Assembly: GCF_008107725.1 (NCBI RefSeq)
Contig: NZ_VIRN01000064.1
Coordinates: 992,001-1,056,000 of the forward strand
Length of the DNA: 64,000 bases
From: Marinobacter sp. BW6
GTDB lineage: Bacteria > Pseudomonadota > Gammaproteobacteria > Pseudomonadales > Oleiphilaceae
Direction of reading: 5' to 3'
Of the stretch, positions 32,943 to 64,000 are shown piece after piece (position 1 is the first letter of the stretch; each line of letters opens with the position of its first letter). The notes beneath the pieces are model-generated. The model had not been told where the DNA came from, did not search any database, and saw only the letters and a program-made list of their open reading frames with translations. The position numbers and the translations under genes were made by a program.

Positions 32943-33073
32943 TGTCGGATTACGCGTGGCGGGGCCACGCTAATCCGACCTACCGTAGGTCGGATTAGAC
33001 GAAGTCGTAATCCGACAAATTCCCGAGCCCGAAAGACGAAACGTAGGTCGGATTAGCGAAGCCGTAATCCGAC
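32943..33073. repeat. Cluster of three REP-like palindromes
   Basis: Three related units of GTAGGTCGGATTA...TAATCCGAC type lie between narI and the parvulin gene: 32943-32983 (reverse orientation), 32985-33016 and 33043-33073. Each can fold on itself, and the first two face each other head to head like a BIME. Such elements commonly stabilise upstream mRNA or terminate transcription; no T tract is present. Confidence 0.8.
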
Positions 33074-33903: not shown

Positions 33904-33941
33904 GCAGGATGATCTAAAGGTTAACTCCTTGGTTTGGAGGG

Positions 33942-34051
33942 TGGTGGGCCGGTTAGCTTTCCAAAACTGTGCGGAGCCATGGATGGCGGAGCCCAAGCGC
34001 CACACGGATGTGCCGCAAGGAGCGTGTTTTGGAAAGCTAACCGGCCCACCA
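33942..34051 (-). repeat. Variable-arm cruciform element, copy 1
   Basis: Perfect 26-base inverted arms (33942-33967 and 34026-34051) enclose a 58-base centre. On the minus strand the centre differs at only 3 of 58 bases from that of copy 2 (40163-40220). The inner 11 bases of the arms (CTTTCCAAAAC) are shared with copy 2, but the outer 15 (TGGTGGGCCGGTTAG) are unrelated to copy 2 while still self-complementary. The centre contains CAC-N6-GTG and GCCATCCATGGC. It sits between the parvulin gene and the dnr promoter. Confidence 0.85.
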
Positions 34052-34106
34052 TCCTGTGCTCCAAAGTTAAAACTTCTGGTCCGCAAATAGTTAGTAACAA
34101 AACACT

Positions 34107-40132: not shown

Positions 40133-40250
40133 GCAAACCAAGAGGGAAGGCCTTTCCAAAACACGCTCCTTGCGGCACGTCCATGTGACGCTTGGGCTCC
40201 GCCATCCATGGCTCCGCACAGTTTTGGAAAGGCCTTCCCTCTTGGTTCGC
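40133..40250 (+). repeat. Variable-arm cruciform element, copy 2
   Basis: Inverted arms of 30 bases (40133-40162 and 40221-40250) with one mismatch surround a 58-base centre nearly identical to copy 1 (55 of 58). The inner 11 bases CTTTCCAAAAC / GTTTTGGAAAG are as in copy 1; the outer 19 (GCAAACCAAGAGGGAAGGC) are unrelated but self-complementary. The single mismatch is A.C on the plus-strand RNA and a G.U wobble on the minus-strand RNA. It lies between nosZ and nosD, 23 bases after the nosZ terminator. Confidence 0.85.
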
Positions 40251-61678: not shown

Positions 61679-63601
61679 TTAGTGAGACTTGCGAACCCGC
61701 AGGTACCATTCGGCCAATAGCCGAACCTGCTTCTCCGTGTAGCCTCGATCGACCATACGCTCGACGAACTGCTTGTGCTTGTTCTGGTCTTCCTGACTCG
61801 CTTTCGGGTTGAAAGAAATGACCGGCAGCAGATCCTCGGTGTTCGAGAACATCTTCTTCTCGATCACGGCACGCAGTTTTTCATAGCTGAGCCAGGACGG
61901 GTTCTTGCCACCGTTGTTTGCCCGGGCCCGCAATACGAAGTTCACCACTTCGTTGCGGAAGTCCTTCGGATTGGAGATACCCGCTGGCTTCTCGATCTTT
62001 TCCAGCTCTTCGTTGATCGAGGAGCGGTCGAGAATTTCGCCGGTGTCCGGATCCCGGTATTCCTGATCCTGAATCCAGAAATCGGCATAGGTGACGTACC
62101 TGTCGAACAGGTTCTGGCCGTACTCGCTGTAGCTTTCCAGATACGCAGTCTGGATTTCCTTACCGATGAACTGCACATAGTGCGGTGCCAGGAATTCCTT
62201 GATGAACCTGAGATATTTCTCATGGGTTTCGGCAGGGAACTGTTCCTGCTCGATCTGTTTTTCAAGAACGTAGAGCAGGTGAACCGGGTTGGCAGCCACT
62301 TCGGTGGTGTCGAAATTGAAGACTTTGGACAGGATCTTGAAGGCAAAACGGGTGGAAAGCCCATCCATGCCCTCCATTACGCCAGCGGCGTCACGGTACT
62401 CCTGAATGGATTTGGCCTTCGGGTCGGTGTCCTTGATGTTCTGGCCGTCATAAACCCGCATCTTGGAGAAGATGCTGGAGTTTTCCGGATCCTTGATGCG
62501 TGACAGCACCGAGAACTGCGCGAGCATATCTAGGGTATCGGGCGCGCAAGGCGCGCCTTCCAGGGAGCTGTTGCTCAGCAGTTTTTTGTAGATCTCGATT
62601 TCTTCAGTTACCCGCACACAGTAGGGCACCTTGACGATATACACCCGGTCAAGGAACGCTTCGTTGTGCTTGTTGTTGCGGAAGGTCTGCCACTCGGATT
62701 CGTTGGAGTGGGCCAGGATCACACCGTCGAACGGGACAGAACCCATGCCTTCGGTGGTGTTGTAGTTGCCCTCCTGGGTGGCCGTCAGCAAAGGATGCAG
62801 CACCTTGATCGGTGCCTTGAACATCTCTACGAATTCCATCAGGCCCTGGTTGGCTTTGCACAAACCCCCGCTGAAGCTGTAAGCATCGGGATCATCCTGG
62901 GAGAAGTCCTCCAGCATGCGAATGTTTACCTTGCCGACGAGGGCAGAAATATCCTGGTTATTGTCGTCGCCGGGTTCGGTCTTGGAGACAGCAACCTGAT
63001 CGAGTACCGAGGGGTACATTTTCACAACCCGGAACTGGCTGATGTCGCCGCCGTATTCATGCAGGCGTTTGACGGCCCAGGGCGACATGATGTTTTTGAG
63101 GTAGCGGGCGGGGATGCCGTATTCCTCTTCCAGGATCTGGGCATCTTCAGCCGGGTCGAACAGTCCCAGCGGCGATTCGTTCACTGGTGAGCCCTTTATG
63201 GCGTAGAAGGGCACTTTCTGCATCAGTGATTTGAGTTTTTCTGCCAGGGAGGATTTACCGCCGCCGACGGGACCAAGGAGGTAAAGAATCTGTTTCTTTT
63301 CTTCCAGGCCCTGGGCGGCGTGTCGGAAGAAGGAGACGATATTTTCTACGGCGTCTTCCATGCCATAGAATTCGGAAAACTCGGGGTATCGCTTGATGAC
63401 TTTATTGGAAAATATGCGTGACAGCCTCGGATCTTTCGAGGTATCGACGAGCTCTGGTTCGCCAATGGCAATTAACATCCTCTCAGCGGCCGTGGCGTAG
63501 GCCGTTGGGTCCTTTTTGCAGATCTCCAGGTATTCCTCCAGGCTGTATTCTTCTTCCTGGGTACTCTCATACCGGTCTTTGAAATGCTGCAGTATGCTCA
63601 T
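61679..63601 (-). CDS. PrkA-family serine protein kinase (YeaG-like)
   Basis: A 640-residue protein with an AAA-type ATPase core: Walker A GPVGGGKSS at residues 110-118 and, further on, the PrkA blocks DGVILAHSNESEWQTF and RVYIVKVPYCVRV. A C-terminal kinase-like domain ends at SWLSYEKLRAVIEKKMFSNTEDL. E. coli YeaG functions in nutrient stress and nitrogen starvation. It is the first gene of the three- or four-gene operon. Confidence 0.94.
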   Translation of the reverse strand: MSILQHFKDRYESTQEEEYSLEEYLEICKKDPTAYATAAERMLIAIGEPELVDTSKDPRLSRIFSNKVIKRYPEFSEFYGMEDAVENIVSFFRHAAQGLEEKKQILYLLGPVGGGKSSLAEKLKSLMQKVPFYAIKGSPVNESPLGLFDPAEDAQILEEEYGIPARYLKNIMSPWAVKRLHEYGGDISQFRVVKMYPSVLDQVAVSKTEPGDDNNQDISALVGKVNIRMLEDFSQDDPDAYSFSGGLCKANQGLMEFVEMFKAPIKVLHPLLTATQEGNYNTTEGMGSVPFDGVILAHSNESEWQTFRNNKHNEAFLDRVYIVKVPYCVRVTEEIEIYKKLLSNSSLEGAPCAPDTLDMLAQFSVLSRIKDPENSSIFSKMRVYDGQNIKDTDPKAKSIQEYRDAAGVMEGMDGLSTRFAFKILSKVFNFDTTEVAANPVHLLYVLEKQIEQEQFPAETHEKYLRFIKEFLAPHYVQFIGKEIQTAYLESYSEYGQNLFDRYVTYADFWIQDQEYRDPDTGEILDRSSINEELEKIEKPAGISNPKDFRNEVVNFVLRARANNGGKNPSWLSYEKLRAVIEKKMFSNTEDLLPVISFNPKASQEDQNKHKQFVERMVDRGYTEKQVRLLAEWYLRVRKSH

Positions 63602-64000
63602 AGATCGCCCTCGCTCGCTGTTTCTTCAGCTTTCAGTTCACGCAATTTCCCCGTTTGCAGTCAGCTCCGCCCATCCGGGCGGTTTATTTAGTTATGGGTG
63701 GAAGGAATGGATACTTACAAGTCTGTGCACGATCTGGTCGTGGTCGGCTTGCTTACTTTGAGCTTAGTTCACGGTTGGGGAGTTGGACAGTGGGTGAGTG
63801 GTTAAGGTTCATTAAATTATGTTAGGCGGGTGTGTTGGTTTTGTAGCCTTATTAGGGGAGGGGGCTGGAGCGCACCGGGAGTCTTTCTGTGTACGAATTG
63901 GCAACTCGCTGCGCTCAGACATCAAATTCGTACACAGAAAAACTCCCGATACACTCCGATCAAGCCATCGGGATAATCGCTTTAAATCAGCCTAGAGTTT
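63602..64000. other. Intergenic region with no gene; long hairpin inside
   Basis: No ORF with a plausible start or family is seen here. The region contains the prkA upstream sequence and the inverted repeat at 63870-63954. The AT-rich sequence near 63760-63850 could hold a promoter, but I cannot place one with confidence. Confidence 0.7.
63870..63954 (-). repeat. Long inverted repeat with GC-rich apex (third cruciform)
   Basis: Inverted arms of about 25 bases (63876-63900 and 63923-63948) enclose GCAACTCGCTGCGCTCAGAC. Outside these, GGAGCGCAC pairs imperfectly with GATACACTCC. Almost every mismatch is C.A in plus-strand RNA but a G.U wobble in minus-strand RNA, so a minus-strand transcript would form a near-perfect hairpin. 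The design is like the cruciforms at 33942 and 40133 but with a different centre. Confidence 0.75.

Follow-up and report, generated by a model that had tools for sequence, protein, structure and literature searches.

The window analysed here is a stretch of 64,000 nucleotides from Marinobacter sp. BW6 (C12:992001-1056000 of the 4.21 Mb genome G000). Near its right end lies prkA (61679-63601, minus strand; PrkA AAA and C-terminal domains in Pfam), which is followed downstream by the DUF444 and SpoVR genes. Upstream and co-directional is a thiopurine S-methyltransferase gene (Pfam TPMT), whose 3' end occupies 63992-64000 on the minus strand and whose gene call (63992-64645) extends beyond the window. 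The two genes are separated by a long hairpin, which starts 34 nt after the stop codon of the methyltransferase gene and ends 265 nt before the start codon of prkA. The latter interval harbors a minus-strand block (63760-63819, AATTTAATGAACC...TGAACTAAGCTC) that is conserved among congeners irrespective of the presence of the hairpin; a pattern match to it was obtained in 41 of 60 upstream regions, 25 of which lack the hairpin apex, and the block presumably represents the prkA promoter region. A search with Rfam 15 yielded no window match at gathering scores. Six terminator-like sites (GC-rich stem followed by a T run) were detected in locus L193, none of them on the element, which judged by this pattern is not an intrinsic terminator.

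The two arms of the hairpin, 63867-63899 (3' arm on the minus strand) and 63925-63957 (5' arm on the minus strand), form 33 consecutive, gapless paired positions, 29 of which are Watson-Crick pairs. The other four are C.A on the plus strand (63883/63941, 63875/63949, 63873/63951 and 63871/63953) and all turn into G.U on the minus strand, exactly as the preliminary description had it. Immediately outside this stem, one G.T (63866/63958) and another C.A (63865/63959) are found, and due to the former the minus-strand G.U rule is imperfect even at this hairpin. Folded as single-stranded DNA, the minus strand reached -29.6 kcal/mol (z -9.30) and the plus strand -24.7 kcal/mol (z -6.89), and for either strand none of 200 dinucleotide shuffles matched the fold; the corresponding RNA values were -60.0 (minus) and -43.5 (plus). 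The long hairpin that had been proposed is a real structure. In its centre lies a constant apex, AACTCGCTGCGCTCAGACA (63903-63921, plus strand), and a tag, GTAGCCTT (63843-63850, plus strand), can be read 62 nt before the 17-mer apex. Without the tag, the element measures about 91 nt. The isolated apex showed no special stability as a DNA fold (z 0.5). On the minus strand it includes GCGCAGC or GCGAAGC, and heptamers of this kind form unusually stable DNA mini-hairpins.

An ungapped inverted-repeat scan of the window (match +1, mismatch -2, score at least 16, arms up to 100 nt from the centre) returned four hits, at 32968, 33938, 40136 and the prkA site. The 40136 hairpin has 27 pairs without mismatch, outside of which follow an A.C (40135/40248) and two further pairs to position 40133; this A.C is the single mismatch that had been reported for the copy at 40133, and it does become G.U on the strand reading TGTGCGGAGCC. 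The 33938 hairpin contains one plus-strand G.T (33941/34052), and its centre is opposite in orientation. Both (33938-34055 and 40136-40247, arms of 30 and 27 bp) are built around a long constant centre of their own (TGTGCGGAGCCATGGATGGCGGAGCCC...), oppositely oriented in the two. It differs from the centre of the prkA-site hairpin, the putative second subfamily of the preliminary description, and each of the two has one wobble that is G.U on the strand reading TGTGCGGAGCC.

Allowing up to 2 mismatches, 15 copies of the 17-mer apex were found in the genome, versus 1 for the reversed control. They have the apex AACTCGCTKCGCTCAGACA and a loose consensus in common while the arms differ between copies, in line with the variable-arm hairpin family suggested beforehand. 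With up to 1 mismatch, 33 of the 36 congeners searched carry copies (up to 37 each), and among 21 further genomes from the order, 3 contain the apex, with a single match each. Among the genus elements, GTAG shows an enrichment at 60-65 nt ahead of the apex: the interval 50-85 nt before it gave 48 hits, compared with 5 for the adjoining bin and 10 and 8 for the opposite side. The longer motif TAGCC is found in this interval (at about 60 nt) in only 52 of 148 distinct genus elements, and therefore the tag was lost or altered in most of them. Several copies are arranged as convergent pairs with inverted ends, tags pointing outwards and an unconserved spacer, and 30 such pairs from 11 genomes were gathered. 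When the orientation of whole pairs was compared in 23 cases, 2 were inverted, 17 had the same sense and 4 were ambiguous. At one locus of G007 (L295), a single hairpin appears by eye to fuse two elements. At L289 of G009, a short GTAG REP pair (GTAGGATTAGCGAAGCGTAATCCGAC...) is inserted in the spacer of a hairpin pair, and the orthologous pair of our own genome (L003) does not have it.

To place the hairpin beside prkA in its genus context, 59 upstream regions were parsed from the 60 of 61 genus genomes in which prkA is present. The element was found at the site in 17 of the 59 regions, and in the other 42 no copy was detected within 4 mismatches. In 16 of the 17 carriers a copy lies in the orientation of the window (in G059 alongside a plus copy), and the only copy of G015 is a plus one. 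Empty sites differ from filled ones by more than the hairpin, and in some of them the stop codon lies a few bases from the prkA block. In G028, G010 and G031, which lack the apex, a different hairpin occupies the site, and several species have no hairpin of any kind there. Among 16 orthologues at this site, the apex is near-constant, the stem base is similar, and the mid-arms are widely different yet paired. The consensus structure of these orthologues contains 26 pairs, 16 of which show two-sided changes; the compensatory arm changes that the preliminary description proposed to look for are present.

From the G.U bias, it had further been proposed that an RNA transcribed in the direction of prkA is under selection, which would make the hairpin part of a minus-strand RNA that regulates prkA. 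The four stem mismatches, all G.U on this strand, are consistent with this idea, as are the excess of G.U over A.C on the prkA-sense strand of the 16 orthologues (56 versus 31) and the maintenance of site and orientation in 16 species. Its best support comes from two positions of this one site, the basal column pairs 9-95 and 11-93, which on the prkA-sense strand are U.G or U-A in all 16 orthologues (U.G in 12 and 13 sequences, respectively, and U-A in the remainder). At the prkA site the strand bias thus stands; across the family, it is absent. Scored relative to the apex, the copies of our own genome contain 57 G.T versus 39 A.C on the plus strand and those of congeners 162 versus 86, which is opposite to a minus-strand rule, and 88 elements of other taxa show little bias (164 G.T, 187 A.C). 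When own and congener copies were grouped according to flanking-gene direction, the ratios were 60/24 for '++' and 38/33 for '--', and no consistent transcription-linked bias was seen. A general one-strand G.U rule was therefore rejected, and the wobbles do not show selection on RNA towards prkA. In addition, 42 of 59 congeners do without the element there, the hairpin lies on the far side of the conserved prkA block, and many other genes have such elements too. We thus regard a regulatory RNA of prkA as very improbable.

Gene context was assigned from codon-usage gene calls, which placed genes to the left and right of 48 of the 53 genus elements. These 48, which are not independent since paired elements occupy one gap, comprise 24 convergent and 24 co-directional contexts (12 '++' and 12 '--'), and none is divergent. 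For comparison, the window and three further stretches (115 kb, 4 kb of which were counted twice) contain 40 gaps that measure 60 nt or more, and 14 of these are divergent. In '++' and convergent contexts, the typical distance from the left gene's stop codon to the apex downstream of it is about 90 nt. A larger set of 143 elements from the species-genome collection, which includes named Marinobacter records, gave 41 '++', 29 '--', 28 convergent and 7 divergent contexts, 3 elements within a call and 35 with one side unassigned. This position, together with the replacement hairpins of G028, G010 and G031, suggests a role at the 3' ends of genes. One explanation would be a plain transcription end signal, in which the task of the hairpin is termination or protection of the upstream transcript and every stable hairpin would be adequate. 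The lack of divergent contexts among the 48, the typical distance of the apex from the stop codon and the substitution by other hairpins at the prkA site agree with it. However, the element carries no terminator-like pattern, several species have no hairpin at all at the prkA site, and a 19-nt apex kept across phyla as well as the element pairs would be left unexplained. An end signal as the whole explanation is thus unlikely.

Changes of the arms were characterized by comparing orthologous elements between closely related species, with flanks at least 88% identical on both sides. A larger arm set of five genome pairs and 42 comparisons, in which G000, G009 and G076 were each used twice, comprised 1495 pairs. 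Both partners had changed to another Watson-Crick pair in 40 of them and in some other way in 7, while a single change had produced G.T in 24 and broken the pairing in 49. Under independent arms 4.7 double changes were expected, at a flank divergence of 6%; the p value of 0.001 obtained from this set treats dependent rows as independent. A non-overlapping set (three genome pairs, 31 comparisons, 1120 pairs) contained 26 double Watson-Crick changes, 6 other double changes, 20 changes to G.T and 36 single breaking changes. Arm changes that break the pairing, which according to the preliminary description would speak against selection on an RNA, do occur (the 36 single ones among 1120 pairs), but the 32 two-sided changes are ten times the 3.2 expected if the arms were independent. 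A looser orthologue set with 102 double Watson-Crick changes was left out, as it contained wrong or inverted pair members. The 26 double Watson-Crick changes are concentrated in 9 of the 31 elements, with none in the other 22, and most of them lie within a few nucleotides of each other; 10 are flips (e.g. T-A to A-T) and 9 are transitions. The transition share of double changes is 0.34 (95% interval over elements 0.14-0.63) versus 442/770 = 0.57 in the flanks, a value within this interval. G018 and G073, which are 98-100% identical in the flanks, differ in the arms by four changes, each matched on the other side, and by a one-base insertion that is matched as well; no unpaired change was found among the Watson-Crick pairs. 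The change counts therefore indicate that the arms change about as fast as the flanks, but jointly and in bursts. In a separate search, an arm copied from elsewhere in the genome, or a guide, was considered and rejected: a 20-mer of the one arm tested matched (up to 3 mismatches) its own two arms only.

Replication template switching produces multibase matched changes in stems, according to PMC8794818, and the joint bursts seen here would fit such a process. Like stems that evolve by quasipalindrome or template-switch mutation, the elements undergo multibase matched changes that keep the pairing, and spacer inversion is a further likeness; template switching, though, is a mutation mechanism, whereas the hairpin is an element family. 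Counter to it, single breaking changes outnumber double ones, and the transition share is compatible with the flank value. A different source of matched arms would be a structured RNA module, a 3' UTR or small RNA with the apex as a protein-binding loop on a long double-stranded stem, whose pairs would be maintained by selection at the RNA level and whose mobility would be a by-product. The two-sided changes in 16 of 26 consensus pairs, the location past stop codons and the different hairpins that G028, G010 and G031 have beside prkA speak for it; burst-like matched changes in 9 of 31 elements speak against it. Moreover, the apex occurs in both orientations to transcription in the genus (12 '++', 12 '--'), a consistent G.U preference on the transcribed strand is lacking, the window has no Rfam match, and the copies are dispersed and absent from 42 of 59 prkA sites. 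Such a module is possible, but we consider it rather doubtful. The combination of a fixed tip, free matched arms and many orthologues offers a clean means of separating selection for pairing from homogenisation by template switching, a separation that concerns every covariation-based RNA discovery.

The family was then set beside known repeat systems. REPs are mostly located downstream of genes and in dimers (PMC3733652), and are given there and in PMC8266576 as 20-40 bp long with family-specific stems. The elements resemble the GTAG REPs, BIMEs and REPINs with their RAYT/TnpAREP enzymes in having a GTAG tag at one end (PMC3733652, PMC8266576), and also in being intergenic palindromes mostly downstream of genes, in forming inverted dimers and in their patchy occurrence among relatives. 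Tag, placement and dimers were thus found as in GTAG REPs, whereas length and shared stem were not. In contrast to the REPs of these texts, the stem has at least 33 pairs in about 91 nt without the tag, its sequence is free while the loop is conserved, and no cognate transposase could be tied to the element. Due to the mismatch in size and shared stem, and as no transposase is proven, the family was not filed as REP and is called REP-like only in its working. TIRtron TIRs (TIRYT; PMC3733652) are similar in their long and partly self-complementary inverted repeats, dimers and dispersed families, and some of them have the consensus GGGGWSAS. The likeness extends to a Y1 gene located between two copies in G017 and G007; unlike in a TIRtron, the immediate neighbors of this gene are short GTAG REPs, and the locus is a single one common by descent.

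Y1 transposase genes are present in 23 of 38 genomes. No Y1 match was obtained in our own genome, and the apex was found in 0 of 30 loci of the best Y1 matches. Copies beside a Y1 gene were seen at one orthologous locus, where two copies flank the gene in G017 and G007 and one copy is present in G010 and G003. At this locus of the four congeners (L432-L435), a RAYT-type Y1 gene and an alkyltransferase-like gene lie amid short GTAG REPs and adjoin hairpin copies, and the orientation of this locus varies between species. Since the short GTAG REPs directly surround the Y1 gene, the enzyme may serve those. An all-against-all comparison of 2950 open frames from the species-genome loci, in which the larger groups were inspected, revealed no recurring transposase-like neighbor; the groups obtained were common families, judged from their sequences to include an ABC transporter ATPase, a short-chain dehydrogenase and an AMP-dependent ligase, and frames running through the repeats themselves. 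Searches of the open-access literature by exact or shorter sequence returned no published description of the element, nor did the available part of RepRanger (PMC12306157) hold a match.

As a reading of these data, we favor a GTAG-tagged, giant, REP/BIME-like and non-autonomous dispersed hairpin element of about 130 nt at gene 3' ends, and consider it roughly an even call whether this is correct. In such an element, the tag would mark one end, and the long stem would carry the constant apex as a recognition head. A factor might read the apex, perhaps together with the tag, so that the arms would need only to be complementary to each other. Their matching could be maintained mainly by replication template switching, by which one arm is copied into the other, with additional selection for a hairpin at the gene 3' end. 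Spread may have occurred through recombination or a single-strand-acting HUH/Y1-type enzyme, which the present genome would lack. Beside prkA, the hairpin would mark where the upstream gene's transcript ends and separate it from the prkA promoter region.

The apex is not restricted to the genus. In the species-genome collection, the exact 19-mer was present in at least 118 stretches, where about 4 are expected by chance. Among the matches listed, 80 were titled and, sorted by name, comprised 12 Marinobacter, 17 other gamma- and 16 betaproteobacteria, 14 Bacteroidota, 13 Bacillota, 5 Nitrospirota, 2 of Desulfobacterota type and 1 unplaced; the exact 19-mer is thus found in six high-level taxa and spans at least five phyla. 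In an even draw of the class, it was detected in 13 of 274 genomes (our own included) and the reversed control in 0 of 274, and the viral collection contained 7 stretches with the exact 19-mer. For non-Marinobacter elements from titled loci among the matches listed, a recount that excludes named Marinobacter records and 41 elements of untitled loci, the arms of 68 of 88 paired better than all 20 shuffles and those of the other 20 did not. Arms of different taxa look unrelated, and small apex-adjacent features recur across groups, such as CTGCGG...GTCCTCG, which was noticed by eye beside the apex in Nitrospirota, some Lachnospiraceae and a Barnesiella record.

As causes of this wide distribution, the data fit common descent, horizontal spread and reuse of one recognition tip alike. 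A single ancient hairpin class across bacterial phyla, with a 19-nt apex, free complementary arms, one widespread reader and rewriting by template switching, is a tentative proposal that we consider less likely than not. A 19-nt tip in at least five phyla points to a putative, undescribed reader, and the family offers a natural test of hairpin evolution and spread.

In eight loci of other taxa, Rfam yielded four matches, all far below gathering. At L118 (6759-6942, minus strand), an RT-15 RNA match of 21.8 bits (gathering 82, E 0.53) overlaps the element on the opposite strand and is probably due to chance. Several other taxa show a short A/T-rich hairpin, then a mirror-like A-rich stretch (e.g. 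ACTTTTCTTTG...CAAAGAAAAGTAAGCAAAAGAAA) and then the apex hairpin. This arrangement was seen in Nitrospirota (L071, L079, L082, L106, L124, L133), betaproteobacteria (L066, L097, L101), Xanthomonadaceae (L048, L086, L118) and Bacteroidota (L105, L113), and the module before the apex hairpin could form an intrastrand triplex or a pseudoknot. Intrastrand triplex motifs (PMC4666352) are likewise intergenic repeated structures, which abound in many bacteria and lie in variable regions, sometimes in inverted pairs. They need three mirror-related strands, which are not evident in the genus element; outside the genus, several taxa have the mirror-like A-rich module before the apex hairpin. In the Xanthomonadaceae loci L048, L073, L086 and L118, hexanucleotide tandem repeats such as (CAACGG)n, (CAAAGC)n or (CAACAG)n are located downstream of the apex hairpin.
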